DNA of 64,000 bases from Sphingomonas sp. (GTDB lineage Bacteria; Pseudomonadota; Alphaproteobacteria; Sphingomonadales; Sphingomonadaceae): positions 1 through 64,000 of the forward strand of contig NZ_JAIEPC010000009.1 in assembly GCF_019749955.1 (NCBI RefSeq). Reading direction: 5' to 3'. Below are positions 33,311 through 61,770 of this stretch, one piece after another. How positions within the stretch are numbered: position 1 is the stretch's first letter; every line of letters starts with the position of its first letter. A model generated the notes under the pieces. It did no database searches, was not told the DNA's origin, and saw nothing but the letters and a program-made list of their open reading frames with translations. The translations under genes and the position numbers were made by a program.

Positions 33311-34510
33311 ATGCGTAAGTCGTTTTTTGTCGGTCTGCTGGCTGCGGTGGCGTTGATCCCTGGTGCGGCGCTTGCGCAGGAAGAGGGCGATCGCTTCGAG
33401 CCCGTGCAGCGCCTGCTCAATGAAGGCGGCCCGCGCTTTCAGCCATCCGAGTCGCGCCCGCAGCGCGAATTCCGCGCGCCGCCGCAGTTCCAGCAGCCGC
33501 AAGCGCAGCCGCAGTTTCAACGGCCTGATCGTGGCTTCAACCAGCCGCAGCAGCCGCAATTCCAACGGCCCGACCGTGGCTTCAACCAGCCGCAGCAGCC
33601 GCAATTCCAGCGCCCCGATCGCGGCTTCAACCAACCGCAGCAGCCGCAGTTCCAACGGCCCGACCGTGGCTTCAACCAACCGCGCGCCGATGTGCCGCAG
33701 GTGACCATCGACCAGCGCCAGCAGCCGCCCACGCCGCCCGTGTTCCAGCAGCAGCCCCGGTTCCAGGGTCAGGTGCGCGGTGATCGCCCCGATTTCCGGG
33801 GTGACCGGCGCGACAACCCGCAGGATTTCCGCCAGAATCGCGGCACCTTCGGCGGCACCCCACCCGCGCCGCAATTCCGCGACCAGCGACCGGACTTCCG
33901 CGCGGACCGGCGTGATGATCGTCAGGACTTCCGCGCCGACCGCCGCGATGACCGGCAGGATTTCCGTCGCGATCAGCGCCCGGACTTCCGCGGCGACAAT
34001 CGGCCGGGGTTCCGCGACGATTTCCGCCGCGACTTCCGGGGCGATAATCGTCAGGGATTCCAGGGCGGTTTCCGTCAGGATTTCCGGAGTGACAACCGCC
34101 AGGGCTTCCGGGGAGACTTCCGCCAGGATTTCCGTGGCGCCTATCGCAACCAGCCCAATTATCGCGGCGACGGGCGCTTTGGTAATGGCTTTCGCGGTGC
34201 GTGGAACCGCGACTGGCGGCGCGACAATCGCTGGAACTGGCAGAGCTATCGCAGCTTCAACCGCGATATCTTCCGCCTGCCCCGCTATTACGCACCCTAT
34301 GGCTGGAGCTATGGCTATCGGCGGTTTTCGATCGGCTACACGCTGAACAGCATCCTGTTCGATCAGCGTTACTGGATCAGCGATCCCTATTATTACCGCT
34401 TGCCCGAAGCCTATTACCCCTATGAATGGGTGCGCTATTATGGCGATGCGCTGCTCGTCGATGTCGAGACGGGCGAAGTGGTCGATGTGGTTTACGGCAT
34501 CTTCTACTGA
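33311..34510 (+). CDS. RcnB family periplasmic protein with long repeat region
   Basis: 399 residues from ATG 33311 (GGAGG spaced seven bases away; the ATG at 33308 is too close). Signal peptide to about ALAQ. The centre is very low in complexity: four tandem copies of a 15-residue Gln/Pro unit (residues about 66-125) and then many RQDFRGD-type repeats rich in Arg, Asp, Phe and Gly. The C-terminal 70 residues match RcnB (YAPYGWSYGYRRFSIGYTL, ISDPYYYRLPEAY, LLVDVETGEVVDVVYGIFY). RcnB relatives are periplasmic and linked to nickel/cobalt balance. A terminator follows. Confidence 0.8.
   Translation: MRKSFFVGLLAAVALIPGAALAQEEGDRFEPVQRLLNEGGPRFQPSESRPQREFRAPPQFQQPQAQPQFQRPDRGFNQPQQPQFQRPDRGFNQPQQPQFQRPDRGFNQPQQPQFQRPDRGFNQPRADVPQVTIDQRQQPPTPPVFQQQPRFQGQVRGDRPDFRGDRRDNPQDFRQNRGTFGGTPPAPQFRDQRPDFRADRRDDRQDFRADRRDDRQDFRRDQRPDFRGDNRPGFRDDFRRDFRGDNRQGFQGGFRQDFRSDNRQGFRGDFRQDFRGAYRNQPNYRGDGRFGNGFRGAWNRDWRRDNRWNWQSYRSFNRDIFRLPRYYAPYGWSYGYRRFSIGYTLNSILFDQRYWISDPYYYRLPEAYYPYEWVRYYGDALLVDVETGEVVDVVYGIFY
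33506..33685 (+). repeat. four tandem 45-bp repeats in the RcnB-type gene
   Basis: Four in-frame 45-bp units encode QPQFQRPDRGFNQPQ, with only synonymous differences between copies apart from the last residues of the fourth. A likely site of copy-number change by slippage. Confidence 0.88.
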
Positions 34511-40807: not shown

Positions 40808-40844
40808 GAATGGTCATTCCAAATCTAGTTTGGAATGACCATTC
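40808..40844 (+). repeat. 16-bp perfect inverted repeat downstream of the UrcA gene
   Basis: GAATGGTCATTCCAAA (40808-40823) is repeated inverted at 40829-40844 with a five-base loop. It can form a very stable stem, but no T-tract follows. Within each arm GAATG and CATTC also form a smaller dyad. It may end transcription or act as a two-way operator. Confidence 0.7.
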
Positions 40845-44772: not shown

Positions 44773-44847
44773 GGCCCCTTCGTCTAAGGGTTAGGACGCG
44801 GCCCTTTCACGGCTGAAATACGGGTTCGAATCCCGTAGGGGTCACCA
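44773..44847 (+). tRNA. tRNA-Glu (anticodon UUC)
   Basis: 75 bases including encoded CCA. Acceptor arms GGCCCCT/GGGGTCA with the usual mismatch, D-arm, anticodon loop CTTTCAC (UUC), T-arm CGGGTTCGAATCCCG. Confidence 0.96.
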
Positions 44848-46629: not shown

Positions 46630-46999
46630 CAGTTTCGGATCGACGCCCTATCGCGCAAGGGGTGGAGCGGGTGAAGGGAATCTGCTCCACATTTTGACTG
46701 TCCTGAAACCCGCAGCAATCCGCGATTCTTAGTTCGTCCGAAATCGTGTGTGCTACAGGTTGGTGCGCAGTTCAAGCGACAACCGGCAGCTCGGCGGGCG
46801 TCTCAACCATTCGATCAAATTCTGATCTCGTTTGAGATCATATTTGATGATGATCATCTTGGCATCGCTCTCCAAACGAAGTTTCTCGGCATAAGCTGCC
46901 GTTTGCCGCTGAAGAAGCAGACCATCGGCAATGCACCCTATCGCGGTCGTTCGCCGGGCCAATCACTGATCCCGTAAGCCAGCGTTTGCTCAGGTCGGG
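46630..46999. other. intergenic region between tmk and the putative defence operon
   Basis: About 370 bases. A 69-codon minus-strand frame (46753-46962) has an ordinary amino-acid profile but no recognised family or good Shine-Dalgarno. The end of the operon transcript must lie here; no clear terminator was seen. Composition drops in GC near 46,800-46,900. Confidence 0.45.
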
Positions 47000-48133
47000 T
47001 CACGTCGCCGCTGATGGAACCGGACTTCCATCGCCTTCTCGTGCGGCGTTCGGTCCCATTGCGTCGGCGTCGCCGTGCGTTGGGGATGTCGCGACGCTCA
47101 AGTCATGCAGTTTGTAGGACCACATGATCCCGGTGGCCGGCGTTTCGGTTTCCACGTATCGGTCGGGCATCCGGCAAACCAGCGTGAAGTCTGGCCTGAT
47201 TAAGGCGGCGATGCCGAAGCCTATCGCATGCGGCTTCGTGCCGAGGCAGAGGCCGACCTCTTTGAACCTATCGCAGCGGTCCAGGACGTCGATCACGATT
47301 TCCGCGGCGGCTGCGGCGTCCCCGGCCGGGCACCTCAAGATCTCGCGCTCGTCGAGGTCGAGGTTGGTGGCGAGCGCTTTCGCCTCCTTCTCGCTTTGGT
47401 CACCGTATTCTGGGGAGAAGCCCGGGTAGGGCGTCACTAGGCAATGCCGTTCGGCCTCGTAGACGCGGATCAGCTTCCTCGCCTGGAACGTCTCGAAGCC
47501 GATCGAGGCGATGACCTCGACCTTTTTGTCGGGTGACAGCCGCCCCTCGAGGTAGGGCACCGGCAGCGAGCGCCACGCCCCCTCGGTGAACGCATGGTCC
47601 GGAGAGAGAGACGTGTTCCCGTCGGAAGGCGCGTAGCGCCCCTCGGCATACAGGAGCCGTAAGGACCGAACCGATCCGGACGACACGCAGTAACCCATAA
47701 GCGTCAACATATAGTATTTTGGGAGGCAGCTAACGTCGACGACCATGTCGAGCGGCCTTCCCAGCTCGATCCGCGTTCGGGCGACGAGCTCGGCGATTGC
47801 GTCGCGCCAGCTCTCGACATCCGACACGGACTGACGGCCGAGATCGGCTACGCTCACGGCATGTTCGGTCGCAAGGCGCCACAGTTCGGCGTCGTGATCA
47901 GCCCGGCGTCCAGATGTTCCTTCCTCGGCGAAAGTTATCACGGTGGCCACGGCGTAGCGGCCGTGCATCACTCGGGCGACCTCGATGCATCTTCGCTCCC
48001 AGCTCGAGGTGAGAACCAGCAGGTCGCCCGCAGCCTCCATCCTTTCGCTGATGCGCCGCTCCTGCCGCATTTCGACGTGTCCGCGTCGCCAAATCACGTC
48101 ATTCATCCCCGCCGAGGTTGCGTTGCTAACCAT
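47000..48133 (-). CDS. uncharacterised alpha/beta protein, third gene of the MPE-ATPase operon
   Basis: 377 residues from ATG 48133, whose A is the last base of the ATPase stop (TGATG). Alternating strands and helices suggest a Rossmann-like N-terminal domain: DLLVLTSSWERRCIEVARVM, ATVITFAEEG, and DMVVDVSCLPKYYMLTLM followed by RSLRLLYAEGRYAPS. A second half begins with VEVIASIGFETFQARKLI. The DVSCLPK and LYAEGRY segments look like conserved motifs of a ligand-sensing or effector family, but I cannot name it. The operon position suggests an effector or accessory subunit. Confidence 0.75.
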   Translation of the reverse strand: MVSNATSAGMNDVIWRRGHVEMRQERRISERMEAAGDLLVLTSSWERRCIEVARVMHGRYAVATVITFAEEGTSGRRADHDAELWRLATEHAVSVADLGRQSVSDVESWRDAIAELVARTRIELGRPLDMVVDVSCLPKYYMLTLMGYCVSSGSVRSLRLLYAEGRYAPSDGNTSLSPDHAFTEGAWRSLPVPYLEGRLSPDKKVEVIASIGFETFQARKLIRVYEAERHCLVTPYPGFSPEYGDQSEKEAKALATNLDLDEREILRCPAGDAAAAAEIVIDVLDRCDRFKEVGLCLGTKPHAIGFGIAALIRPDFTLVCRMPDRYVETETPATGIMWSYKLHDLSVATSPTHGDADAMGPNAAREGDGSPVPSAAT

Positions 48134-50103
48134 CAGAGGAGTCTCGGATGCTCGTCCGGCGACTCGCGCAGAATGCGGGCGTACGCCCGACTCACCGCCT
48201 CGTCGACCTGGACATCGGATCCCGCGTCGCACACCTCGGCGAACTCCTCCATCGGCATCTGCAGGATCCCGTAGGGTCCACGGTGAGAGAAGCCGAAGTA
48301 GGAGGCGAAGCGGCGGTGCAAGTGGAAGGTCAGTTCCGGCTCTTCACGCCCTTCGCCAATCTGCCCCTGGCGCGGGGGGCGCAGCAGCCCGTCCGCCTCG
48401 CATCGCCTGAGCAGACGCAGGATGAACGCCTTCCTGTCCGGCGTGGACATGCGGCCCCGACCGAGCGTGTCCAAATCGAAGTGGAAGTTGCCCCGCTCGG
48501 GTGTGGAGAGGGTGGAGGTCGAGGCATGGTTCGACTGCAACCTCGCGGTGAGCTTGCCGATGAACTCCATCGCCCGTTCGGCCTCGGCTCCGTCGCGTTC
48601 GAAGTTATTGCGGATGCCGTCGTATTTGGCCTTGCTCGACACTCGGACACCCTCGAGCTGGGTGTCCGCCGAGAGCGGCTCCTCCCTTCGCTGAAGGTCG
48701 GCGATTGAACGGATCTCGCCGCGCGCGACAGCCTGTTCAAAGATCGCCCCCATAATCTCGAGATAGTCGCGTATGCAAGTGTCGCCCATGTTGGTGATCG
48801 TCTGGGCGCCGACGTAGGGGATGCGGCTGAGCCGGAATTCGGAGTAGATCGCAAGAAGCGCGGCGAACTGCTTCCTGCGCATGTAGGCATCCACGTTCTC
48901 GTCCCGGGTGTCGCGCAGTCGCTCGCCCAGCTTCTCGAGCACGTAGGTCTCATAAATCGGCGGCGCCTTTCGGCGCGTTGCGGAGCTCGAACGCCGGCTC
49001 TTCTCAACCAATGCAGCGAGGTCCGAGGAGAGCGAGTTCCGCGCCGCCTCCAACAGCGCCTGGTCCACGTTAAGGCTTCCGAGGAGGTCGCGCAGATTGC
49101 AGTATCTCGCCGGCAGCCGGTCCGGCGGGGGACGGTCTCCGCTAATGTCTGAATAGTATATGCGAAGTCGGGAGACGTTCTCGCAAAGCCGGTAGAAGTG
49201 CTTACCGTCGATCTCGTCTAGGTGGAGTTGCGCGCGGTCGGCGTCGCTGAGTGTCTGGTTGTGCTGGATAGTGTTGGTCGAGTCGTAGTCGACCGACACG
49301 AAGCTGATCACCCAGAACAGTGGATGGCTCGAGTTACGGACCATCGTGTTGAGGAAGCGCTGCTGGAGCGGTCGGAGCGTCTCGCAGTCGTCGATGCAGA
49401 TTTTCACGTGGAAGTCAGCCGAGCAGACGCCGTCGGTCGAGCAGGCAAGCGATCTGAGCGCAGAAGCCAAGTCGTTAATGAAGAAACCCGGCTGCACCGG
49501 CAGGGTATGGTCCAGCGCCTGGCGCAGCATGCCTCGCGTCATCAGCACGTTGAGGCGCTGGTGGGCTTCGCGAAAAAGTTCAGACAAGTCATCCAGGCTG
49601 CGGCAGACCCCCGTCCGCCTGACGTCGAGCGACGGGTATCGCGACATTAGGCCGCGAACGGTCTGTTCCTCCTGCTCGAACGGGTAGGGGAAGCGGCCGG
49701 CGGCGCGCAGCGATGCTAGCGCCTCGCAAATCAGCTGAGCGGCGACGAATTCTATGAGCTGCGAAAACAGAGTATGCCCAACCGCTTCGGCGCTTGGGCT
49801 CTCGGGGAAGGCCGTTGACCAGTCGATGAGGCCTATTGCGCTCGCGAGGTAGTCGGGCAGCCGGAAGTAGACCGCCAGGTAGTCCGGCGCATCAGACCCC
49901 AGTTGATCGCGGACCGTGGGATTGTGAAGCCGCTCTCTCCAGTTCACCGCCTTTAACAGGCTGGTCTTGCCGCTACCGCGCGTCCCGGCGACGTAGGCCG
50001 ACTTCGTCCCTTCCAGCTTACTCACGTCGGGCGAGATCCAGATCAACGGATGCTGCTCGTGCTCAAAGCGGGTGGGTCGGAAAGGGTTCCTGATCTCGGT
50101 CAT
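48133..50103 (-). CDS. ORC/STAND-like P-loop ATPase of the putative defence operon
   Basis: 656 residues from ATG 50103, which overlaps the metallophosphoesterase stop by four bases; the longer frame upstream is not protein-like. Walker A GTRGSGKT is at residues 40-47 (SAYVAGTRGSGKTSLLKAVNW). Walker B is near 234-241 (KICIDDCETL), followed by a sensor-like strand FWVISFVSVDYDS. The order NPF, ISPDV, P-loop is typical of ORC-like ATPases in defence loci. The C-terminal half is helical with a winged-helix-like stretch near the end. Likely an activity switch for its two partners (inference). Confidence 0.8.
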   Translation of the reverse strand: MTEIRNPFRPTRFEHEQHPLIWISPDVSKLEGTKSAYVAGTRGSGKTSLLKAVNWRERLHNPTVRDQLGSDAPDYLAVYFRLPDYLASAIGLIDWSTAFPESPSAEAVGHTLFSQLIEFVAAQLICEALASLRAAGRFPYPFEQEEQTVRGLMSRYPSLDVRRTGVCRSLDDLSELFREAHQRLNVLMTRGMLRQALDHTLPVQPGFFINDLASALRSLACSTDGVCSADFHVKICIDDCETLRPLQQRFLNTMVRNSSHPLFWVISFVSVDYDSTNTIQHNQTLSDADRAQLHLDEIDGKHFYRLCENVSRLRIYYSDISGDRPPPDRLPARYCNLRDLLGSLNVDQALLEAARNSLSSDLAALVEKSRRSSSATRRKAPPIYETYVLEKLGERLRDTRDENVDAYMRRKQFAALLAIYSEFRLSRIPYVGAQTITNMGDTCIRDYLEIMGAIFEQAVARGEIRSIADLQRREEPLSADTQLEGVRVSSKAKYDGIRNNFERDGAEAERAMEFIGKLTARLQSNHASTSTLSTPERGNFHFDLDTLGRGRMSTPDRKAFILRLLRRCEADGLLRPPRQGQIGEGREEPELTFHLHRRFASYFGFSHRGPYGILQMPMEEFAEVCDAGSDVQVDEAVSRAYARILRESPDEHPRLL

Positions 50104-51413
50104 ACCGCCCTCGAGATGCGCCAGTGCGCGCTTGGCCTGTCGGGGTTCTGGACGTGGACTAGCCCGAGCCACCGGAGTTCGTCGATGACACCGTGCAGCA
50201 TGGCTGCCTCCCAGCCGGTGCTGATCGAGAGTTCGGCGGAATACTTCACTTGATCGGGCTCGATTTTCCGCATTAGCTCCCGGCCGTTCGCGCTCACCAT
50301 GTTGAGGCCCTCCCGAGCATCCCAAATCGGAACCGACTGCGACGTCAGTCGCTCGACATGGCTGCCGCTGCGCCGGTGACGGCCCACTTGGCAGCCGAGC
50401 GGCACGCCGTCCTCGTTGAAGGCGATCTTGACGACGTTGAAGCCGTCCCGCAGCAGCGGCGCGGAGATCGAGATGATTGCGCCGCCCGGATGGCTCGGCG
50501 ACCGCACAACCTCGACCGGATCGTCGTGGAGGTGGCCATGCAGGAAAATCACTGGCCGCTTGAGGGTCAAGAGCGCCGATCGGACTGAACCGGCGTTGAT
50601 GAGTTCAGAGTAAGGCGCGATGCGGGGAGTAGTCTGCGGTAGGATGTTGTGGTGCGCGCAGACGACCGGCATCGCCGTCTCGGGCAGAGCCGAGATCGAT
50701 TCCCGGAGGAGCCGCATTGTCTCATCGTCGATCGCCGGAGTGTCGATCCCCTCGTAGATCTCATTTAGTTCAGCCTCGCTGCCGCCATCGCGGAGGATGC
50801 GCTCAATCTCTGGACCCGCCTGCTTTGCGAGGATGCCGCCAAGCAGGCGGATCTGGCCGCAGCCCCGGCAACTGTTGACGCCGTATACGCGAAGCTCTGC
50901 GGGCGAGGTCCCTCCGAACACCCGCACCTCCGGGTTGAGCACGCTCGCGGCTGGGAAGCCCGCGCCGGTGATCGAAGCATTGATGTCGTCGAAGCGCTGG
51001 TCGGTCTCGGGATCTTTTCGGCGGTCGACGTCGTGGTTGCCGATCAGCAGCTGGCAGTCCGGTGCCGAGCCACTGGACCAGTCAGTCGGGAAGAGATTGC
51101 GCAGGTAACTCAGGCATTCGTCGAGGCCGGTCTGGTCACCCCGATTGGTGAAGTCGCCCATGAAGGCTACGAGCTGAGGCCGCTCCTCCTCAACGCTCTT
51201 CGCGAGTGCCCGGTAGATCGACTGGAGGGGCGGCATCCCGATAGAGGCCGACAGGGTCTTCGGGAATCCGGGGTCCTTGTTATCCACTGGGGACGCTGTG
51301 TTCTCCTTGTCCGTGTAATGGACGTCTCCGACTTGTATGACCTTAAACAGCTGCAAGTTCTGTCCTGTTCTGCGTTCGTCGTCAGTGCCGCCTCGCTGAC
51401 TGGAATAGCACAT
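50100..51413 (-). CDS. calcineurin-like metallophosphoesterase with C-terminal winged helix
   Basis: 437 residues. All five metal motifs are intact: GDVHY (29-33), GDFTNRG (86-92), GNHDVD (125-130), AHHN (253-256) and GHLHDD (293-298). The fold is that of Mre11/SbcD-like and cyclic-nucleotide phosphodiesterases. The last 80 residues (VKYSAELSISTGWEAAMLHG, LRWLGLVHV) look like a winged helix, suggesting nucleic-acid binding. ATG 51413 directly abuts an IS remnant; a TTG at 51356, with AGGACA upstream, is an equally good start. First gene of the three-gene operon. Confidence 0.85.
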   Translation of the reverse strand: MCYSSQRGGTDDERRTGQNLQLFKVIQVGDVHYTDKENTASPVDNKDPGFPKTLSASIGMPPLQSIYRALAKSVEEERPQLVAFMGDFTNRGDQTGLDECLSYLRNLFPTDWSSGSAPDCQLLIGNHDVDRRKDPETDQRFDDINASITGAGFPAASVLNPEVRVFGGTSPAELRVYGVNSCRGCGQIRLLGGILAKQAGPEIERILRDGGSEAELNEIYEGIDTPAIDDETMRLLRESISALPETAMPVVCAHHNILPQTTPRIAPYSELINAGSVRSALLTLKRPVIFLHGHLHDDPVEVVRSPSHPGGAIISISAPLLRDGFNVVKIAFNEDGVPLGCQVGRHRRSGSHVERLTSQSVPIWDAREGLNMVSANGRELMRKIEPDQVKYSAELSISTGWEAAMLHGVIDELRWLGLVHVQNPDRPSAHWRISRAV

Positions 51414-51497
51414 TCAGGTTGAGCTGCACCCAGTTTTGCGGGGACCAAGCGAGGCTACGTTAGCCTGCTTCTCGAAGTCCATGGGGCTGAGATAGCC
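51414..51497 (-). pseudogene. C-terminal remnant of an IS3-family transposase
   Basis: On the minus strand the frame GYLSPMDFEKQANVASLGPR...SST ends in TGA at 51414-51416. GYLSPxxFE is the conserved tail of IS3-family OrfB transposases. Only about 27 codons remain, and the usual terminal inverted repeat is not evident, so it is a decayed or recombined end. It separates the RelA/SpoT gene from the metallophosphoesterase operon. Confidence 0.72.
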
Positions 51498-51596
51498 TTA
51501 ACCCAAAAAGCAGTCGTTAGCCTGGGTTCTTGCGGGCGGCCCTGACCTTGGCCGCATCTGAGTTCGCTGGGCTGAATTGCTTCAGCGACTTGTTCG

Positions 51597-54593
51597 CTAG
51601 GAACCGTCAAACTCGATGTTGCGCAGCGCGATGGTCCGGTCGGCGCGGCGGCGCTCCATCGCCATCTGGTTGTCCGCCGACCGGATGAAGCGCGCAGCGA
51701 AGTCGCGAACGGCCTGGTTCTCGTCGGCCTCCCATTCGGCGACCAGGGCCTTCCGCGCCTCCTGCGCTTCGACCCTGCCATATTCGCCGACGAGAACGCC
51801 GCTCGAGTCGATGACGACGTCGACGATGTTCAGCAGCTCGTCGTCTGCGGGCAGGAAGCCGACGATGGCGCGCAGCAGCGGATGCAGGAACTTCTCGCCC
51901 TCGTAGGCCCTCAGCACCGAGAGCACGAAGTCGATGCCCTCGCGCCCCTGTTCGAGTTGGCTGTAGAGCAGCGCATAGAGCGGGTGCTCCAGTGCGGGGA
52001 AGAGCTCGGCGATGAGCCGGCCGCCGTGGAACTGCGAGAACGCCGGATTGGCGTCGAACCACGCCCTCGCCGCCGCCACGATCTCGCCCGGGGCTGCCGC
52101 GAGCGGCGCGCGCAGGTAGTAGAGGCCGTGCGGCAGGTCCTCGTATCTGACGTCCCCACTCTTGCTGTCGTGCTGGAAGCGCCGGCCGATCAGGTCGATG
52201 ACGGCCTGGACGTGTTCCGCCGCGATGACGGCGAGCATTGCCTCGCCGTCGCTGCCTAGCCGCGGCACGTCGGTCATCAGCCCGAGCAGCGGGTCGACCT
52301 GCTCGGGGGAGAGTCCCTTGAGCAGCGCGACCTGGTCCCAGTTGAACATGCCGCCGGTCCAGCTGAAGACGCCGCGCGACGCCAAGGACCGCGCGGCCGG
52401 AAGGTAGATCTCGTCGAACAGGCCCGACGGATGCTTCGCCGACTGACGGGCCGCAGCGATGGCGGCGTTGTGCAGGATCGCGTCGTCCGCTGCGGCCAGC
52501 CCCTTGCCGGTAATTGTGGCCAGCAGGTCGAACCGGAACGCCTCGGCGAACTGCAGATAGTAGGCAATCGAGGACAGGTGCCGGTCCTCGCCGATCCAGC
52601 CTTCGACCAGCCGGTCTATATCCGGACCGCGCCCGGCTTCCCAGAGCCCGTGAAGCATGCCGGGCAGCCATGCGGCGAGGCGGTCGCTGAGCCGGGGCAA
52701 CCACGACAGCAGGATGTCGGGCTGCTTCGTCGCGAGCCGCTTGATGAAGTCCTGGAGTCCCACGAACGTCGCCCCGTCGCTGCTGCGCGTCTCGACGAAG
52801 CGCTCGAGCCGCGCGAGCCACTCGTCCAATGTGTCGGCAGTGACTTCCGCGATCAGCGCGTCGATGCCTGCGGACTGCTCTTCCTTCCTCGCCTCGTAGT
52901 CGAAGCCCGGCTTCGCCCACATGCTCGCGGTGACGCTGTCGTAACCGACGAGTAACCGGTAGCGGCCCAGTTCGGGATCGGCGTCGAGCGCGGCACGCAC
53001 GGCAGCGAACGCCTCGAGCAGCCGCCCCTGCGCCGCCGCCAGCGCGGCGTTCCCGGCCATGGCGGGCGGCAGCGCGTGGTAGGCGTAGTATCGCTGATGG
53101 ACGGCGACCTCGAGATGACGCCTCGCCTCGAGCCCGAGGCCGGGGATCACCCCGGCGAAGAACCCCATGACCTGCGCGAGGTCGTCCATGATGACTTCGC
53201 CCAGCTGATCGGTGTAGCCGGCGTTGTTCGGCGTGCTGCCCGCAGCGAGCATGGCATGGCGCACATTGCCCTTCAGCCTGTCGTTGGCGAGAAGCACGTG
53301 CAGGCGCTCGAGCTGCCCCAGCGCGTCGCGGCGGATCTGCTTCAGCGCACCGGTGACGACGACCGATCCATTGTGGAGCAGCATCGCGTCGGCCTTCCAG
53401 CTGGTGCCGGTCACCGTGCTCGAGAGGGTTTCCTTTAGCATGATGGTGGCGTTTGCGGCGGCATCGAGCAGTGGCGCGTCGTCCATCCCGGCGAACCTGT
53501 CGACGATCAGCCGCTGGATCGCCGGCCCGACCCGTTTCCAGGCATGGAGCTCATACTGGGCGAACCGCCGGGCGAGATCGTCGATAGGCTTGCGCTCGTC
53601 GTCCGTGACGACAGCGCGGCGCATGGCGATCACGGCGTCGAACATCCGCTCGGGCGCCGCATAGAGCAGATACCCGCTTTGCAGGATCCGGCAGATCTTG
53701 ACGATGACCGCGTGGCTCTCGGTGCCGGGGTACTCGCGGTTGAAGTAATTGAGCGGCACCTCGGGCATCCCGGGCGCGCGCATCGCCGCGTCGGACATCG
53801 CGTCGATGATGTCGGGCGCGGCGGCGGCATAGTCGTCGAAGTGGGGCAGCACGAAGTTCGAGTAGCGCTCGACCGTCTCCTCGAGGCTGTTGCGATCCTC
53901 GCAGGCGCGGATCGCCGCGAGGGCGTCTCCGTCGAACATCTCCTTGCCGTCCCGCAGGCGGGCATAGTCGCTCGCGATCTTGTCGAAGGCGTAGCCAGCC
54001 GGTTGGAGGTGCTCCTGCATCACCTTGCGCAACCGCTTGCGCATCGCCTCGATCTTCGCGGCCCCGAACCCCACGTCGGTCATCGGCTTGTAGATGGTGT
54101 CGTGCGCCATCTCGGCCCAGGCGTGGTCAAGGATCGTCTGGACCTGGATTTCACAGCGCAGTCCGGTAAAGCGGCGGTATTCGGGAAGCGCGCAGCGCTT
54201 CTCGCTCAGCTTCACCACCCAGTTCTCCGATATGAAGAACTCGGCGCCCTCCTCTTTGCTCTCGGGGTAGTGCATCTTGGAGCGATCGTAATCGACGTCG
54301 AAGTTGTCGCGCAGGATGCCGCTGTGTCCGAACCGCTGGACGTCGCCGTTGGTGTAGAAGATCACGCGGCAGCCCGAGACGTCCTTGGCGACGTCGCCGA
54401 TCGGTGTGTCGGCGGTTGCCCCGCCCCGGGCGAGCTTCGCCTCGAGCGACACCGGCTCCTTCGCCCGGCGCTGAATGTTCTGCAGGCGAAGGTCGCATTG
54501 CTCGGCGATCGCGGCTTCGAGGATCGCCGCTACCGCCTCAGCAAACTCGGCGTAAAGGACCATCCCTCCGCTCTGATATTCGTCGAAGGTCAT
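51597..54593 (-). CDS. large RelA/SpoT-domain nucleotidyltransferase protein
   Basis: 998 residues from ATG 54593, with GGGAG six bases upstream. Residues about 40-175 form a RelA/SpoT-type (p)ppGpp-synthetase fold: SLEAKLARGG, DVSGCRVIFYTNGDV, FDVDYDRSKMHY, the core GLRCEIQVQT (145-153) and HAWAEMAHDTIYK (157-169). The hydrolase, TGS and ACT domains of long RSH enzymes are absent. The remaining 800 residues are helical and repeat-like. Comparable toxin/effector synthetases modify nucleotides or tRNA; here the target is unknown. Lies upstream of the MPE operon in the same direction, with an IS relic between. Confidence 0.8.
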   Translation of the reverse strand: MTFDEYQSGGMVLYAEFAEAVAAILEAAIAEQCDLRLQNIQRRAKEPVSLEAKLARGGATADTPIGDVAKDVSGCRVIFYTNGDVQRFGHSGILRDNFDVDYDRSKMHYPESKEEGAEFFISENWVVKLSEKRCALPEYRRFTGLRCEIQVQTILDHAWAEMAHDTIYKPMTDVGFGAAKIEAMRKRLRKVMQEHLQPAGYAFDKIASDYARLRDGKEMFDGDALAAIRACEDRNSLEETVERYSNFVLPHFDDYAAAAPDIIDAMSDAAMRAPGMPEVPLNYFNREYPGTESHAVIVKICRILQSGYLLYAAPERMFDAVIAMRRAVVTDDERKPIDDLARRFAQYELHAWKRVGPAIQRLIVDRFAGMDDAPLLDAAANATIMLKETLSSTVTGTSWKADAMLLHNGSVVVTGALKQIRRDALGQLERLHVLLANDRLKGNVRHAMLAAGSTPNNAGYTDQLGEVIMDDLAQVMGFFAGVIPGLGLEARRHLEVAVHQRYYAYHALPPAMAGNAALAAAQGRLLEAFAAVRAALDADPELGRYRLLVGYDSVTASMWAKPGFDYEARKEEQSAGIDALIAEVTADTLDEWLARLERFVETRSSDGATFVGLQDFIKRLATKQPDILLSWLPRLSDRLAAWLPGMLHGLWEAGRGPDIDRLVEGWIGEDRHLSSIAYYLQFAEAFRFDLLATITGKGLAAADDAILHNAAIAAARQSAKHPSGLFDEIYLPAARSLASRGVFSWTGGMFNWDQVALLKGLSPEQVDPLLGLMTDVPRLGSDGEAMLAVIAAEHVQAVIDLIGRRFQHDSKSGDVRYEDLPHGLYYLRAPLAAAPGEIVAAARAWFDANPAFSQFHGGRLIAELFPALEHPLYALLYSQLEQGREGIDFVLSVLRAYEGEKFLHPLLRAIVGFLPADDELLNIVDVVIDSSGVLVGEYGRVEAQEARKALVAEWEADENQAVRDFAARFIRSADNQMAMERRRADRTIALRNIEFDGS

Positions 54594-54965
54594 TCCGTGC
54601 TCCCGCCCCGCCCCCAAAGCCGAATTGCGGGAAACATATCCGACGACGATCCGCGGAGCTACCTAGCTTTGGCCTGGCAGAGAGGGACAGCTATCTCGTT
54701 CGTCATCGAAGTGAGCTGCCGGTCTGCTACCGGCTCAAGTTTTGCCGTCTGCAAGACATCGGGCATGCGAATGCGCAAATGTCTCTTCCTGACAATTGCG
54801 GCCGTTCGACGCGGCGAGCGCAAACGGCAGCGAAATGCCAATCCACACCGAAATCAGACCATGACTGGGCGTGCGGCTGGGGCAGTCGGCGCCATCGGCC
54901 GGCATGCCGCATCGGCGCAAACCCCTTGGCCGACTGTCGCGACCCTAGGGCCTGTAAGGAGGGCA
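54594..54965. other. intergenic region upstream of the RelA/SpoT gene
   Basis: About 370 bases between two leftward genes. It should contain the promoter of the RelA/SpoT gene. No coding region with family features was seen. Confidence 0.45.
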
Positions 54966-55583
54966 CTACTCATAGTCGTCATCGCGATAATCGAAATCGT
55001 CATTTCGGCGAGCTGTCGCTGGCGGAATGCCTGACAGGTCGGGAAGATCCGTTGTATCAGCCGTATCCGGCGAGGGATCGTCACCGGTGACACCGACCCC
55101 AGCTTGCTGTGAATCGCGGTCAACCTCGTCGTCGAAGACATCGCCCAACGCCTTCGCGATACAGTGCCGATCAAACCGCATGAAACCGCGACCGACGTTC
55201 ATGAAGAAGCCTGCCTTCCGGTAGGCCGATACCAATCCGCGCAACGCTCCGTCGGTCGGATCCCAACCGACCGAAGCCGCCGCAGAGCGCATCTCGGCCG
55301 TGCCAAACCCGTCATGCCTGCCCAACTCCTTCAGCCATGCCCGCTTCTGTGGAGTGACCTGGGGTGCATGAATGCGACTCTTATCTCGCTGGCCGGCGAA
55401 ATAGACCCGCTTTGCGACGTCAAGATCTCGTCTGGCCGTCTCCCGCTCCGCTTCCGCGATATGCAGGTCGCGACTGACCTGTTCGACCGTATACTCAGCC
55501 CTTCTGAGGACGCTGATGCACCGACGGACTTCTGAACCGGCGTCGCCATGCCACTGCTCTTCATCTAACATGTTATCTAACAT
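54966..55583 (-). CDS. uncharacterised protein with possible winged helix
   Basis: 205 residues. The N-terminal part has a helix/coiled-coil look (VSRDLHIAEAERETARRDLDVA). The middle (DGFGTAEMRSAAASVGWDPT, GALRGLVSAYRKAGFF, RGFMRFD) reads as a small winged helix, as in DNA-binding accessory proteins. The C-terminus is acidic and disordered, ending DDFDYRDDDYE. No named family. The start codon region repeats ATGTTAGAT twice, a motif seen again in the upstream non-coding DNA. Confidence 0.6.
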   Translation of the reverse strand: MLDNMLDEEQWHGDAGSEVRRCISVLRRAEYTVEQVSRDLHIAEAERETARRDLDVAKRVYFAGQRDKSRIHAPQVTPQKRAWLKELGRHDGFGTAEMRSAAASVGWDPTDGALRGLVSAYRKAGFFMNVGRGFMRFDRHCIAKALGDVFDDEVDRDSQQAGVGVTGDDPSPDTADTTDLPDLSGIPPATARRNDDFDYRDDDYE

Positions 55584-55998
55584 TCAAATACGCGCTGTGC
55601 CGACCTTAGCGCCGGAAAGCACGCAATATAGCCATTTTTGACCATTACGGCAACCCAATGTTAGATTGATGGGTGAGTTTTTGAATCGCAAATCCGTCCC
55701 ACAGCCCCTTTTTGCACCTAACATTGGGGTTTTTTGGTAGGCGCGGCACCGCGCACGAGATTGCCTTCGCGCAGGCCGGTGTCAGCCTGGCGATGATTCG
55801 GATCGCAAACAAGTTTCAGTATAGACCATCCGCTCGCCAACGTCAACCAGGCCGACAACGTCGGGCACATTGACGCTGCGCCCCCCGTGCTGGCGGTCAC
55901 GCTCGAACCGGCCGCGTGAGCCTAGGCGACGCGGCCGACATGACCATGTCCCCAATAGCCGGAGAGCGATGATGCTCGTCGCTCAAGAAGACCCACTT
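55584..55998. other. regulatory-looking intergenic region with ATGTTAG motifs
   Basis: About 415 bases. CCAATGTTAG at about 55655-55664 and CTAACATTGG at about 55718-55727 form an exact inverted pair, and two more ATGTTAG copies are in the start codon region of the next gene. The stretch just after the second copy reads GGGGTTTTTT. No gene can be supported. Confidence 0.5.
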
Positions 55999-57231
55999 CT
56001 ACCGCCCGTGCACCGCGGGTTCTGCCAGCGCGCGTGCGTCAAGCGCATCGTCCAACTTGCTTCTATCGATCGCCACCAGCCTGCGGACTATCGACGAACC
56101 CTCCGGACCTGGCATCATCACACCATCGAAGAACCCATTCCGGCCCATTTGGAGCTCGACCGTCGGCGTACTCTCCTCGAACAGCAGGAAAAGCCACAGT
56201 CGACGCTCCTGCTCGGTCATACCCACCTTCATCCGAGTGCAGTATTTGTCCAGGAAACGCTGAGCTAGCAAGCCATTCCGATCCGATTCCGCTCCCTCTG
56301 CAAACGACATTTCTATCCCTGTCGGTGGCGCTAGCGCCATCATCGACCGATCAGGCGGAAGCTGCATCCGCGTCACCGCCAGGTCCTCGTCAGAACTCAT
56401 CAGGCGCTCCTCGATCCGATACCCAGTGTGCGACACGTCAATGTCGCCCCAGATGCCGCCGAGTGCGACGGTCGTCATGGCCAGCGAAGTATCCGTCGAA
56501 CCTTCTGACGGCTGGACCAAGCCGCCCTCGTCCTCGTCTGGCGGGACAGTCGGCGAGCCATCCCCTGCTTCAGACCATGTCGATGGAGGGAGGGCATCGG
56601 GGACCGCGTCCAACGCTTCCTGGTGCCCCATCTCCTTGATCGCCGACACCACCAAAGCAAGCCGTGCCTTCGGCATGTTCCGGACGTCGTCTACCAGCAC
56701 ACCTGACGCCATCAGGCGGTTGACGAAATCGACCATGGCCGTCGGGATGTTGCGGAGCTCATCAGCAGCGCGACGCCTCGCATCGTTGGCCATCGCCCGC
56801 AGCTCGTGGTCGATAACCACATGCTCGACCAGATGGCGCACGAGCGTCGCAATAACCCGGTCATTCGCATATACTGCGCTATCTGCGAATGAAAACGCAT
56901 TTTCCGGGGATTTGCTGTTGAGCATCGTCCGGAGGCCTGCGAACGCCTCTTCGAGGCCGTCGTCGTCACCTTCGCTCGACTCCTCCGAATCCAGGACAGA
57001 TTTGCCTCCGGAGACCGCATTCCCAAGTTCCCGGCTAATTATCCGGGAAATCCGGTCGAGCTTGCCTCCGATCCCCTCCTCCTCGATCGGGAGTGCCTGG
57101 CCGTCTACCGACTCGAACAGGGCTTGGCCTGCCAACTCAGGGGCATGGGCGACGACCATTTTTGCAAGAATCCCTTGGCTTTTGTTTGGCCTACCTCTGC
57201 CTCGCACCCATGAAGTGGCGTTCTTCCCCAT
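55999..57231 (-). CDS. uncharacterised 410-residue protein
   Basis: 410 residues from ATG 57231, with GGAAG seven bases upstream. Basic N-terminus (VRGRGRPNKSQG), a helical central region (VRHLVEHVVIDHELRAMAND, RRRAADELRN), an acidic linker (PPDEDEGGLVQPSEG) and a folded C-terminal part (MTEQERRLWLFLLFEES, VELQMGRNGFFDGVMM). No family recognised and no metal or nucleotide motif. The RGRGRP stretch resembles an AT-hook-like basic patch, hinting at DNA binding. Transcribed toward the other putative defence genes. Confidence 0.6.
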   Translation of the reverse strand: MGKNATSWVRGRGRPNKSQGILAKMVVAHAPELAGQALFESVDGQALPIEEEGIGGKLDRISRIISRELGNAVSGGKSVLDSEESSEGDDDGLEEAFAGLRTMLNSKSPENAFSFADSAVYANDRVIATLVRHLVEHVVIDHELRAMANDARRRAADELRNIPTAMVDFVNRLMASGVLVDDVRNMPKARLALVVSAIKEMGHQEALDAVPDALPPSTWSEAGDGSPTVPPDEDEGGLVQPSEGSTDTSLAMTTVALGGIWGDIDVSHTGYRIEERLMSSDEDLAVTRMQLPPDRSMMALAPPTGIEMSFAEGAESDRNGLLAQRFLDKYCTRMKVGMTEQERRLWLFLLFEESTPTVELQMGRNGFFDGVMMPGPEGSSIVRRLVAIDRSKLDDALDARALAEPAVHGR

Positions 57232-57767
57232 AATTCACTTCCACTTCCCATGCTCGATCTGTCCGAAGCAGATCGTCACCCCGGATAAATCGATTCCATT
57301 TCCCTTCGATTCAAATACACGGTGTTGACTGGCATCGCAACAGGCTTCAGACTCCCGACTTCGATTTATCCGTCAATGAAAAATCGGCGCACCGGCTCAA
57401 TCGCGCCGATTCAGCCTATAAAGGGTGCCTACAGGCCCCCTTTTTTACAGGCGCAATACCGCTAACAACGCGGGTGCCCCGCGTTGTTAGCTCAGGCGCA
57501 ATACCGTAGTTGTGGGCTAAGCCCACAACTACTGCCCCTTCCGCTTCGCTCCAGGAGGCCCGGCCGTCCCGGCCGCCGGCAGGCCGACGTCGTCGTCCTG
57601 CGTGTCGCCCCTGCGTGGCTCGGATCGGACCGCCCTGCGGTCCTCTGGTTGCGCCAGCCTTCGGCGGCGCTGTGACCTTCGCTGACGCTCTGGCGAGAAG
57701 TTTGGGTGAATGAAAAAAAGCCCGAACTTCTCCGGCGCCGGCCGGTTCCGGCATCGGAAAGAATGCC
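57232..57767. other. intergenic region between the 410-residue protein and the exonuclease pair
   Basis: About 535 bases, divergent promoters. The middle carries two tandem 45-bp units with hairpins (57448-57532). The rest, 57540-57740, is GC-rich with several small dyads and no gene. Confidence 0.55.
57448..57532. repeat. two tandem 45-bp units: shared 14-mer followed by a perfect hairpin
   Basis: CAGGCGCAATACCG occurs at 57448-57461 and 57493-57506, 45 bases apart. Each copy is followed directly by a perfect hairpin of different sequence: arms 57461-57474 and 57478-57491 (14 bp, three-base loop), and arms 57506-57518 and 57520-57532 (13 bp, one-base loop). Same layout, different stems. Confidence 0.85.
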
Positions 57768-58562
57768 ATGACCACGTTCATCATCTTCGACGTCGAATAC
57801 CGTGTCGATCACGAAGCGCACGGCCGCTATCTCGCGGCCGAGCGCACCGAGCCGGACGCACCGGATCTGTCCGACCGCGATCCCCGAGCTACGCCGCGCT
57901 GGCCCTTCCGTCGGCCTGTGGCGATCAGCTGGATGACCCTGGCGCCGGATGGGGACGGTATCCCCACGCCTGTGACGATGCGGACGGCCGGCAGCCCTGA
58001 GCAAACCGAAGGCGAGATGTTGCGCGGCTTTTTCGCTGACGTCTCCAGCGTCGTGCAGTTGGTCCTCGTGTCCTGGGGCGGTGCTGCAACCGATATCCCC
58101 CAAATCCTGCTGGCCGCGGCGAGGCATGGCATCACGCTGCCAGAATGCCTGCAGCCGTTCGCGCGGCCCTTCGACATGCGGGGCCGGTGCCACACCGATC
58201 TCATGTTGGCGATGGCGCATGGCGCGGCGCGGGTCCATCTGGCCGAGATGGCGGCCGCCATGGACATCCCGGTCAAGCCAGTCGGCGCGCCGACGGCAGT
58301 GGCTGGCTATATCGAGGCAGGCAAGTGGTCGCTTGTGAAGGCAACGGCTGAGGCGGACGTTCTGACCACCGCCTTGGTGCTGGCTCACCACCTTGGGCTC
58401 ACGATGCCGTCCTGCACTGTCCCCATGTGCGACCGCATCGCCAGCTATGCGGTCAAGATGACGCATCGCCCGTTCGCCAGCGATTTCGCCGCCTATCGCG
58501 ATCGTCTGCGCGCTGCAGCCCTTGCCGAGGCACGGTCCAGTTACGACCGGCTCGCTGCCTGA
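57768..58562 (+). CDS. 3'-5' exonuclease-like protein, PolB-exonuclease type
   Basis: 264 residues from ATG 57768, after GGAAAG. It begins with IIFDVEYRVD, the DxE motif of DEDD exonucleases. VLVSWGGAATDIPQILLAAA is the second region and RCHTDLMLAMAHG the third; together they match the predicted PolB-like exonuclease group. Probably a DNA 3'-5' exonuclease acting in repair or element replication. The next gene is also an exonuclease. Confidence 0.68.
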   Translation: MTTFIIFDVEYRVDHEAHGRYLAAERTEPDAPDLSDRDPRATPRWPFRRPVAISWMTLAPDGDGIPTPVTMRTAGSPEQTEGEMLRGFFADVSSVVQLVLVSWGGAATDIPQILLAAARHGITLPECLQPFARPFDMRGRCHTDLMLAMAHGAARVHLAEMAAAMDIPVKPVGAPTAVAGYIEAGKWSLVKATAEADVLTTALVLAHHLGLTMPSCTVPMCDRIASYAVKMTHRPFASDFAAYRDRLRAAALAEARSSYDRLAA

Positions 58563-58605: not shown

Positions 58606-59493
58606 ATGAAGTTCTATGAATTCGAGGGCGATCCCGCCCTCGAAATGCGCGCGCGTGAGCTCGAACAATCAAGCGACTTTCGCGTCCTGCGGCGCGTGCC
58701 GCACCTCCACGAGCTATGGGTGGCGCCGACGCCTGCGCAAGGGCGATCCATCCAGCTGGCGGTCATCGACAGCGAGACGACCGGTCTTGGTGACGGCGAC
58801 AAGATGATCGAGTTCGCAATGGTGAAGATGGCGCTCGATGCCGATGGCCAGATTTGTGATATCGCTGGCCCAATCGACGGCCTGGAAGACCCCGGCACGC
58901 CGCTGCGCCCCGAGATCGTCACGATCACCGGGCTCGACGACGCAATGCTGGCCGGTCAGGGCTTCGACGACGACGGCCTGCGGGAACAGCTCGCCGACGT
59001 CGATGCGATCGTCGCTTTCAATGCGGTTTTCGATGCTCGCTTCTGGCGCGTACGCTTTCCATGGCTGACGAAACCATGGATCTGCGCGCAGAAGGATCTG
59101 GATTGGCATGCCCAAGGCCATGCCGAGCGGTCGCAGTCGGCATTGCTGGCAGCCAAAGGCTTTTTCTACGGGGGGGGCCATCGCGCGGCACCAGACGCCT
59201 GGGCGTTGGCGATCCTGTTGGCCACGCAAGCCCGTGACGGCCGCACGGTCGCCGCCAACCTTGTCGATGGCGCTTTCAGGATCACCCACCGTGTCCGCGC
59301 CGCTGGGGCGCCGTTCGGCTGCCGCGCTGATCTCAAGGAGGCGGGCTACAAATGGGACGCGAAGGCCCGGGTGTGGTGGACCGACGTCGAGGCCAAGGAT
59401 CTCGATGCCGAGATTCTCATGCTCACGGCAATACACCCGTTGATCAAGCCGATGCACGAGCCGGTAGATTGTTTCAATCGGCACATATGGTGA
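58606..59493 (+). CDS. DnaQ-like 3'-5' exonuclease (DEDDh)
   Basis: 295 residues from ATG 58606, with AAAGGA upstream. A DEDDh fold: LAVIDSETTGLGDGDKMIEF (motif I), ITGLDDAMLAGQGF, DAIVAFNAVFDARFW (motif II) and GGGHRAAPDAWALAILL (motif III). The C-terminal 70 residues (GCRADLKEAGYKWDAKARVWW) are a separate small domain often found on such exonucleases. Pairs with the preceding exonuclease-like gene; both likely act on DNA ends. Confidence 0.82.
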   Translation: MKFYEFEGDPALEMRARELEQSSDFRVLRRVPHLHELWVAPTPAQGRSIQLAVIDSETTGLGDGDKMIEFAMVKMALDADGQICDIAGPIDGLEDPGTPLRPEIVTITGLDDAMLAGQGFDDDGLREQLADVDAIVAFNAVFDARFWRVRFPWLTKPWICAQKDLDWHAQGHAERSQSALLAAKGFFYGGGHRAAPDAWALAILLATQARDGRTVAANLVDGAFRITHRVRAAGAPFGCRADLKEAGYKWDAKARVWWTDVEAKDLDAEILMLTAIHPLIKPMHEPVDCFNRHIW

Positions 59494-59709: not shown

Positions 59710-61770
59710 TTACATGCCACGAAAATCTTCAAGATACTCTGATGCTGGCCGCACGCCGGTGAGCAGAAGGTGCTCGCGGGCACGCGTGCAAGCGACGTAG
59801 AGCAAGCGTCGCTCGGTCTCGTATATCTCGTCGAGCTCAGCCTCGTCAGCGGCATCGGCGACACGCTCATCGAGGGGGAGGATGCCTTCGTCGCAAGCCA
59901 TGACGACGACGGCCCTGAATTCCAATCCCTTCGCAAGATGCATCGGCACCGTCGTCAATTGTTCGGCAGCTTCCAGATCGCTCATTGCAGCACGTGCTCG
60001 TGTGACGAGTTCGGGCGTTCTAACGAAGATGCCGATCTCGTGCGCTGCAATGCCGTCAGCCAGCCATCCGCGCACCGCCGCTCGCACTGCGTCCTGCTCG
60101 GCTTCCACCGAAGCGAAGCTCTCAACCAACGGCGCTGGCCCGTCGAAGACCGAAACAATGCCGCGCCGCTCATCCGCGATACCATCGACATCGCGCAGCA
60201 CGGCGGGCAACAAGTGGTCGGCTGCCTCCCGGATCTGCTGTGAGGTGCGGTAGCACACCTTGAGCGTGTGCGACCGACCCCGAACGTCCACCCCCAGGCT
60301 CGACCACGAAAAGGGATGCTGGAAAATCCGTTGGCCCATGTCCCCAGCGAGGAAAAGCGCGTCTGACCCGGCGGGTGCCAAGGCGGCGAAGAAGCGCAGC
60401 TCAGCCGGTGCCAGATCCTGCGCCTCATCGAGGATGATATGGTCGAATGGCTTGTGCGGTCGATCTGCCAGGACCTCCGCCAGCTCGGTGAACACTTGCG
60501 CCCAAGTCGTGTATCGCTCCGCGACTAGCGCCGACCGCACTGCCTCAAACACGGGCCATAGCCGTTCGCGCTGGTTCGGGCCGAGCCGGCTCTTGCGCCC
60601 CATACGTTGGACAGTCGCATAGGCGTCGAAGGTCGGAATCCCCCACGCGTCAATGACGTTCGTCCATTCTGAAAGGAGGAAGCGGTCCGAAAAGCCCTTG
60701 AGTTGCACTGCTTTCGCTGCCTCCCCCAAGCGATCGCGCAGCACCATATCCGCAATGATACGCGGTCGGACACGATGCTCGAGCTGATACATCTGCTCGG
60801 CGATGTCGCGGAACGACGCGGTCGTAATTCGTGGCACGATGGCGCCCGTTTCCGGCGCAAGCACCAACAGCTTCTTCGCCATGGCATTGGCAAGCGGCTG
60901 GGAGAAGCTCGCGAGCAGGATGCGTGCATCGGGGTTCTCGCGAGCCAACCGCACAGCCCGGTGGATCGCGACGATCGTCTTGCCAGTGCCCGCCGATCCA
61001 GCGACGCGGGCGGGCCCGGCAAAGCTGCGGTCGGCCAGATCACGCTGAGACGGGTGGAGGAATACGCCCCACTTTTCCCAGGGAAAGGCCAGCGCCTGCT
61101 CGAGCTCGTCATGGTCAGCGATCGGCCGGATACGACGCAGCACATCGGGATGCGTGAAGGGGTCTGCCGTGGCCGGCACTGCTGCGGGCAGCGGTAGCGC
61201 GCCGGTCGCGGCGTATTCCAATAGCGCCTCGGACGCCTCGGCGGGGAGGTGCTCGGCAAGCGCGAAGAAACCATCCTCGGTCGCCGCACGCACATCGGCC
61301 AGCCAATCGGCAGGAACGCCGATCGACAGCAGCGCATCGTCGTCCAGTGCCGCGAACAGCGCGGGGGATGTTTGAGCCGGGGCCGGGTTGGCATCAGGAT
61401 AGATGAAGTCGAACGATTCGGGGCGGGCGATCTCCTCCACCCGCTCACGCACTTCGACGATCTGGACCGCACCGGTGCGCGGATGTGCCTCGATTCGCCG
61501 CCTCTCTGCCCAAGCATAGGCATCGTCGTGATGATCGACATAGGCGACCAGCATCGACTCGCCGGTCCTGTGGACGATCAGTCGCACGTCGCGATTGACC
61601 CTCGCCGACCAGAAGTTCGGATCCTTGCTCTTGTCGATGCGGTGGAGTTGAAGGCCGTTGCCGCTCGGGTCCATTTGCAGATCGAACACGCTCGCCTTGA
61701 CCGCCTTCTGATCCGGGGAGGACAAGCGGCTGAATGCGGCGGTGAAGGTGTCGGCGATGAGGAAGTTCAT
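59710..61770 (-). CDS. UvrD-type helicase with an N-terminal RelE-like domain
   Basis: 686 residues. Residues 1 to about 90 resemble a RelE/ParE fold (FSRLSSPDQKAVKASVFD, LHRIDKSKDPNFWSARVNRDVRLIV). Helicase motifs: GSAGTGKT at 258-265, ILLASFS, DEAQDLAP at 448-455, LAGDMGQRIFQHPF, CYRTSQQIR, HLAKGLEFRAVVVMACDEG and LLYVACTRAREHLLLTG. An SF1 3'-5' helicase; the RelE-like part may bind RNA or simply be structural. Its ATG overlaps the stop of the small basic gene by four bases. Confidence 0.88.
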   Translation of the reverse strand: MNFLIADTFTAAFSRLSSPDQKAVKASVFDLQMDPSGNGLQLHRIDKSKDPNFWSARVNRDVRLIVHRTGESMLVAYVDHHDDAYAWAERRRIEAHPRTGAVQIVEVRERVEEIARPESFDFIYPDANPAPAQTSPALFAALDDDALLSIGVPADWLADVRAATEDGFFALAEHLPAEASEALLEYAATGALPLPAAVPATADPFTHPDVLRRIRPIADHDELEQALAFPWEKWGVFLHPSQRDLADRSFAGPARVAGSAGTGKTIVAIHRAVRLARENPDARILLASFSQPLANAMAKKLLVLAPETGAIVPRITTASFRDIAEQMYQLEHRVRPRIIADMVLRDRLGEAAKAVQLKGFSDRFLLSEWTNVIDAWGIPTFDAYATVQRMGRKSRLGPNQRERLWPVFEAVRSALVAERYTTWAQVFTELAEVLADRPHKPFDHIILDEAQDLAPAELRFFAALAPAGSDALFLAGDMGQRIFQHPFSWSSLGVDVRGRSHTLKVCYRTSQQIREAADHLLPAVLRDVDGIADERRGIVSVFDGPAPLVESFASVEAEQDAVRAAVRGWLADGIAAHEIGIFVRTPELVTRARAAMSDLEAAEQLTTVPMHLAKGLEFRAVVVMACDEGILPLDERVADAADEAELDEIYETERRLLYVACTRAREHLLLTGVRPASEYLEDFRGM

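Follow-up and report, generated by a model that had tools for sequence, protein, structure and literature searches.

A tandem pair of repeat-hairpin units on a Sphingomonas genomic island resembles MOBQ-type origins of transfer and probably serves mobilisation in trans

The origin of transfer (oriT) of plasmid RSF1010 consists of a 10-bp inverted repeat followed by GGTAAGTGCG/CCCTCCC, and the study describing it reports that specific contacts are made by the stem base only (PMC4814116). Transfer origins are also carried by elements devoid of a relaxase gene. According to one report, oriT mimics of the staphylococcal pWBG749 family are used in trans on such elements, and some staphylococcal plasmids hold two or three of them, mostly differing in subtype (PMC8136818). 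For integrated elements that possess an oriT and no relaxase, the term iOriT is in use (PMC11389934). Among sphingomonads, plasmid pPDL2 of Sphingobium fuliginis is described as mobilizable and integrase-bearing, with a predicted structured oriT and a RepB protein reported to resemble weakly a MOBF relaxase (PMC3516476). In a literature collection from which subscription journals are largely missing, searches on sphingomonad oriT, MOBQ, IME, oriT mimics and tandem or multiple oriT found no description, by title or beginning of abstract, of the unit presented below. A search for its core letters revealed no such element among the matches listed, and these letters occur in a cinI primer in one article (PMC4992315).

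The window, a stretch of 64,000 nucleotides of a Sphingomonas sp. contig, contains two exact copies of the 14-mer CAGGCGCAATACCG spaced by 45 bases (Table 1). As the initial annotation had described, each copy runs into a different perfect stem (14 and 13 bp, the second forming 12 bp in the fold). The last base of the repeat (G at position 14) is already the first stem base in both copies. The core conserved among relatives is GGCGCAATACC, and the stem starts directly after it in both window units and within ~1 base in relatives. For the pair, a 181-nt stretch had a fold z of -7.48, with none of 200 dinucleotide shuffles being equally stable, and the window contained 6 perfect-stem placements (stem of at least 12 bp, loop of at most 5) versus 0 in 20 mononucleotide shuffles. 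Another perfect hairpin, of 16 bp with stem GAATGGTCATTCCAAA, is found at window positions 40808-40844. The initial annotation was right to call the units unlike terminators: no T run follows either stem and a terminator scan calls neither, while a TTTTTT run sits just before unit 1. As to the proposed promoter region, the pair does lie between divergent genes and heads two exonuclease genes, but a sigma-70 consensus scan of positions 57200-57800 detected no promoter.

Table 1. Positions of the repeat-hairpin pair, its flanking genes and the island borders (window coordinates unless stated otherwise).
Feature	Position	Strand	Remarks
Left 21-bp island repeat	46662..46682	+	repeat search
Divergent gene, function unassigned	55999..57231	-	upstream of pair
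Unit 1 repeat	57448..57461	+	exact repeat; core GGCGCAATACC at 57450-57460, kept in relatives
Unit 1 hairpin	57461..57491	.	stem 14 bp, loop TGC; covariation over relatives
Unit 2 repeat	57493..57506	+	exact repeat; core at 57495-57505
Unit 2 hairpin	57506..57532	.	12 bp in the fold, loop TAA; formally 13 bp with 1-base loop
PolB-like 3'-5' exonuclease gene (PF10108)	57768..58562	+	Pfam E 1.8e-13; first gene downstream of pair
RNase_T-type (PF00929) exonuclease gene	58606..59493	+	Pfam E 1.3e-6; homologues downstream of other units
Right 21-bp island repeat	contig 72076-72096, beyond window		at 3' end of tRNA-Gly gene
tRNA-Gly(CCC) gene	contig 72077-72150	-	right repeat at its 3' end

In the 3.22-Mb genome, the exact 14-mer occurs at these two places only, unlike the dispersed common motif lacking a hairpin that would have refuted the initial annotation. 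Allowing up to 2 mismatches, we counted 55 matches in the genome, somewhat more than the 33 of a reversed-pattern control, and, with up to 3 mismatches, 16 in the window against 10.4 +/- 3.3 expected; near-matches by themselves are thus of little informative value. A covariance model that includes the hairpin retrieved just the two units from the genome at E<=10. Of 199 family genomes, the own one alone contains the exact pair, which is also absent from the viral contigs searched. For the 561-bp intergenic region, matches were limited to 23-27 bases and to 4 of 99 further genomes, with none in plasmids. A near-match pair at 33551/33596, with the same 45-base spacing, was rejected as a coding repeat unrelated to the units. 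The surrounding window positions 33480-33680 are a coding stretch whose 45-base repeats imitate the unit spacing.

Copies of the unit were found in relatives, where the initial annotation had proposed to seek them. A first covariance model, made from the two window units alone with stem 1 trimmed by two pairs, matched 13 of 298 family genomes at E<=0.01 (own included); the matched sequences consist of AGGCGCAATACCG, or a sequence near it, followed by stems that vary from genome to genome. A second model was built from 17 units and applied with stricter filters at both family and class level. At E<=0.001 it detected 1-3 units each in 27 genomes, two of them doubtful and one being the own genome, out of 397 in the family; at class level, 2 of 289 genomes matched, both from the host family. 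The doubtful loci, L168 (G107) and L169 (G305), have no family genes nearby and were left out of the unit and array counts. Among named species, a search for pairs of cores separated by 25-55 bases returned 34 stretches. Ten of them are from Sphingomonadales (three from Sphingomonas, one each from Sphingobium, Sphingopyxis, Erythrobacter, Qipengyuania and Porphyrobacter, and two from further Sphingomonadales/Sphingomonadaceae) and have hairpin scores of 8.5-11 for the better unit, whereas the remaining 24 score 8.0 or less. This composition points to Sphingomonadaceae in the broad sense as the host family. Among the 24, those coming closest belong to Parabacteroides (L141, with two stems of 8 bp) and Prosthecobacter (L150, score 7.0), so that the separation is clear, not wide. 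Two loci, L119 and L121, have a second core without a good hairpin in this test, and three viral tandem-core stretches score at most 4. In the collections searched, with the named and other genome sets coming from overlapping catalogues and being perhaps not all independent, the unit is confined to Sphingomonadales.

The hairpins of these units covary. All 12 stem pairs of a 17-unit alignment change on both sides, with 98.0% of 198 cells paired and a covariation score of 0.849 versus 0.224 shuffled, and sliding the partner by 1-3 columns makes pairing fall to 31-44%. An alignment of 52 rows gave 94.3% of 580 cells paired and a score of 0.752 versus 0.191 shuffled; two of five measures, the number of pairs changing on both sides (reached in 353 of 500 shuffles) and that of further pair types (41 of 500), were not clearly above shuffles. 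Fitting both alignments to the model inflates the proportion of paired cells. The stems are conserved in relatives as paired structures of changing sequence, as had been suspected from the window alone. The stems do differ from one another, as the annotation stated, but they are not wholly unrelated, since the 17 aligned units have a loose 5'-arm pattern in common.

Genes encoding relaxase-like proteins adjoin many of these units. A search of the 13 first-found genomes with the MobA/MobL profile PF03389 yielded 26 matches, of which 16 are strong (E<=1e-67) and 10 weak (E>=1e-15). An element precedes seven of the weak matches (genomes G014, G128, G146, G371, G190, G029 and G385) by no more than 3 kb on the same strand, and none of the 16 strong ones; the proposal to look for a relaxase beside other copies was therefore rewarded in 7 of 13 genomes. 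With HMMs built here, 20 of 38 element loci proved to have a relaxase-like gene on the unit strand no more than 6.2 kb downstream (7 with long, 7 with compact and 6 with small HxH proteins), 10 of these loci being independent of HMM training and the other half having served for it. Exonuclease genes of three HMM families likewise follow the units, on their strand, in 21 of the 38 loci, including the window, 8 of the 21 having been used to build the HMMs. These HMMs detected no relaxase-like gene in the remaining 18 loci, of which two are doubtful elements and two (L122 and L131) have less than 200 bases of downstream flank. Neither kind of gene was found in 24 control loci, a weak control since most of them come from other phyla and none exceeds 8 kb. 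The small proteins (frames of ~210-280 aa) at L069, L075, L076, L157, L159 and L161, downstream of units, form one HMM family, and those whose frames were read contain an HxH motif. One of them, scanned against PF03389, remained below cut-off (E 0.098); they are candidates for an unrecognised compact relaxase family.

Gene order differs between the window and its relatives. At L070 and L071 it is oriT, relaxase, RNase_T exonuclease and PolB-like exonuclease, whereas in the window the pair is followed by the PolB-like and RNase_T exonucleases with no relaxase found. Because the window pair heads exonuclease genes and not a relaxase gene, its presumed use rests on the relatives. Searching with the first (PolB-like) exonuclease by tblastn retrieved 5 plasmid records and no phage record, and its scan of genome contigs yielded no confirmed match. 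Inspection by eye of the stretches upstream of 15 of 30 exonuclease loci revealed no common leader, the element being located some kb further up in several genomes.

The bottom strand of each window unit reads as a hairpin followed by GGTATTGCGCC. This sequence aligns to the RSF1010 nick consensus GGTAAGTGCG/CCC with one gap and one mismatch, a score of 7 for which we chose strand and side ourselves, so that the odds are flattered; it was reached by 600 of 200,000 random 11-mers of 64% GC (0.3%), by 285 among as many of uniform composition and by 506 among 200,000 permutations, and the nick regions of RP4 and R388 score 2. The RSF1010 oriT letters matched 206 plasmid records of which 201 are classed as mobilizable, a check that concerns the query letters only. 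Given the conserved unit, the covariation, the MobA/MobL genes beside relatives and the likeness to RSF1010, the two units are probably a tandem pair of MOBQ-like oriT on a mobilizable island of the iOriT type, relaxase-less and mobilised in trans; the last point follows from no relaxase having been found in the island. The transfer-origin or protein-target option of the initial annotation is thus the one favoured by the relaxase genes beside many copies and by the covarying stems.

We infer the nick position and strand, the excision, the transfer and the helper as follows. The 25.4-kb island would first excise. A MobA-like HUH relaxase, borrowed from elsewhere for mobilisation in trans, would then attach to the hairpin, including the base of its stem, cut the bottom strand in the adjacent GGTATTGCG/CC, and lead the nicked strand into the recipient through the secretion system of another element. 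From the alignment with the RSF1010 nick region, the predicted bottom-strand nick separates the complements of 57452 and 57451 in unit 1 (5'-GGTATTGCG/CC-3') and those of 57497 and 57496 in unit 2, with the divergent-gene side expected to enter the recipient first. If so, the unit provides a sequence signature that flags otherwise silent genomic islands of Sphingomonadales, such as the present one with its restriction and further defence-type genes, as probably mobilizable and lets the helper of such islands be asked after.

The same architecture might, alternatively, be a rolling-circle origin of the excised island, at which an HUH protein of the Rep type would nick at the hairpin and start replication instead of transfer. 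HUH proteins and hairpins suit replication as well as transfer, the Rep model REP_ORF2-G2P has a weak match (E 0.15) in the long relaxase of L070, and the exonucleases could serve replication or repair. However, both the long and the compact neighbouring proteins exceed the MobA/MobL cut-off, and the direct contact of conserved core and stem recalls the oriT of RSF1010, which makes a replication origin unlikely.

The covariation might also reflect a structured RNA (a leader, an attenuator or an ncRNA) at the 5' end of the exonuclease/relaxase operons, and such an RNA would agree with the very stable RNA fold and with the position of all relaxase-like and exonuclease genes found near elements on the unit strand. 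RNA pairing would favour G-U over A-C, which a DNA hairpin would not. Among 568 cells (the antisense palindrome match L009:1558-1593, kept in the 52-row alignment, was excluded from this count), 522 are Watson-Crick, 13 G-T and 9 A-C (p 0.52), so that a wobble excess is not clear and DNA pairing rather than RNA pairing seems to be kept; the hairpin is apparently under selection as DNA. In addition, the first downstream gene varies among loci, neither stem is called a terminator, and an Rfam search of the window at gathering score matched only tRNA and terC, both away from the units. An RNA element is consequently quite improbable. The retron or ncRNA suggested by the initial annotation fares no better, as the 14 island proteins scanned with Pfam (one of them in part) gave no reverse transcriptase match either.

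The island to which the pair belongs is 25.4 kb long and delimited by the two 21-bp repeats. A tRNA at 44773 was dropped as a candidate border, with no repeat of it at contig 64-80 kb. An island protein encoded at contig positions 69921-71996 matches DUF6538 (E 1.3e-7) and, below cut-off, Phage_integrase (E 0.2); its integrase family occurs in 8 of the 38 element loci, 5 of which trained the HMM, on a strand that is not always that of the units. Part of its cargo is a minus-strand run of defence-type genes at 47000-57231, possibly an undescribed defence operon, which encodes a CARF6-like protein, an ORC-CDC6-like ATPase, a metallophosphatase and a RelA/SpoT-domain protein of 1006 aa and has two further genes without Pfam match over cut-off. 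Other cargo genes specify a UvrD helicase and a type III-like restriction-modification pair. The UvrD-type helicase (59710-61770) has a long N-terminal part, which by eye resembles a RelE-like toxin, and a protein upstream of the unit at L157 has a similar start. The presence of an integrase on the island and the tandem arrangement of the hairpins would also suit targets or ends recognised by a transposon, a recombinase or a REP-type system, or sites bound by a regulator that senses hairpins. This is the least credible reading, as the island repeats lie elsewhere, at tRNA-Gly, the units are not dispersed (2 in the own genome at E<=10 and 1-3 per matching family genome), and relaxases and exonucleases adjoin them.

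Concerning the mobilisation in trans of the MOBQ-like pair, neither PF03389 nor the relaxase HMMs built here matched in the island, and Pfam searches of the same 14 proteins, which do not cover every frame, gave no relaxase or secretion match. Outside the island, the genome has MobA/MobL matches on two contigs (C79 and C112) and one VirB4 match on a third (C113), so that transfer partners may be present in the genome itself. C112, which carries a compact relaxase match, has no unit at E<=0.01. Its locus L101 (G000:C112, 3418-6029) is a second module in the same genome that combines a PolB-like exonuclease with a MobA/MobL match and is preceded by GGGCGCAATAG without a hairpin unit, possibly a decayed oriT.

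Units frequently occur in arrays. We counted 56 hairpin units in 36 loci, 14 of which have more than one and up to three units. Ten of the 36 loci were found through tandem cores, and 8 of these are multi-unit, compared with 6 of the 26 not selected in this way (window included). Spacing is tight in three of the six, the window, L077 and L080, while in L069, L073 and L156 the units are ~240-540 bases apart (~240 instead of 45 at L069 and L156). Units of the same locus resemble each other in the first five stem bases more than units of different loci do (0.762 versus 0.591 shuffled, reached in 2 of 5000), with related lineages as a confounder, whereas the likeness of distal stems within loci is not clear (0.418 versus 0.362 shuffled, reached in 571 of 5000). 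For 32 of 34 units the best distal match is in another locus, a figure inflated by the larger number of candidates there. The stem-base likeness within loci weakens the idea that dissimilar units are selected for at a locus. This likeness fits a relaxase reading the stem base, apart from the confounding lineages; the window units differ in the stem base too (GCTAA versus GTAGT). Several unlike transfer hairpins might lie side by side, like keys on a ring, so that different helper relaxases could each mobilise one island, and the window pair would then open a relaxase-less defence-type island to two kinds of helper. This seems possible, though rather doubtful. In any case, unlike hairpins on one common core make relaxase specificity (stem base versus distal stem) directly testable.

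Upstream of the units, seven other element loci have a related divergent gene at ~0.1-2.5 kb, and a second divergent gene family is common to six loci. The window's divergent gene joins the seven-locus family marginally, with an E of 6.3e-5 when left out and none found in a search starting from the window gene. In MOBQ4 plasmids, the accessory gene mobC adjoins the oriT, and its transcription runs opposite to that of the relaxase gene (PMC6856555). By analogy with this divergent position, our guess is that the window's gene could be a relaxosome accessory gene.

Compared with known systems, the units share with the RSF1010/R1162 oriT (MOBQ1, MobA) an inverted repeat directly beside the putative nick region, a GGTA..TGCG/CC core that can be aligned on the same side and MobA/MobL relaxases beside the sister units. 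They differ from it in a core that is one base shorter and diverged, frequent arrays with unlike stems, relaxases that match MobA/MobL weakly, and a distribution limited to Sphingomonadales in the collections searched. The pWBG749-family mimics are on plasmids and not on islands, have another oriT sequence, and contrast with units ~45 bases apart. The pPDL2 oriT likewise belongs to a sphingomonad mobilizable, integrase-bearing element, a likeness drawn from its description. With iOriT elements, the window island shares its integrated state, the oriT-like units and the lack of a detected relaxase; it differs by its defence-type cargo, and its transfer is a prediction. A MOBQ-like oriT on a mobilizable island is an already known kind of arrangement, whereas the unit family, the arrays of unlike units and what seems to be their use by a defence-type island devoid of a relaxase appear to be new.
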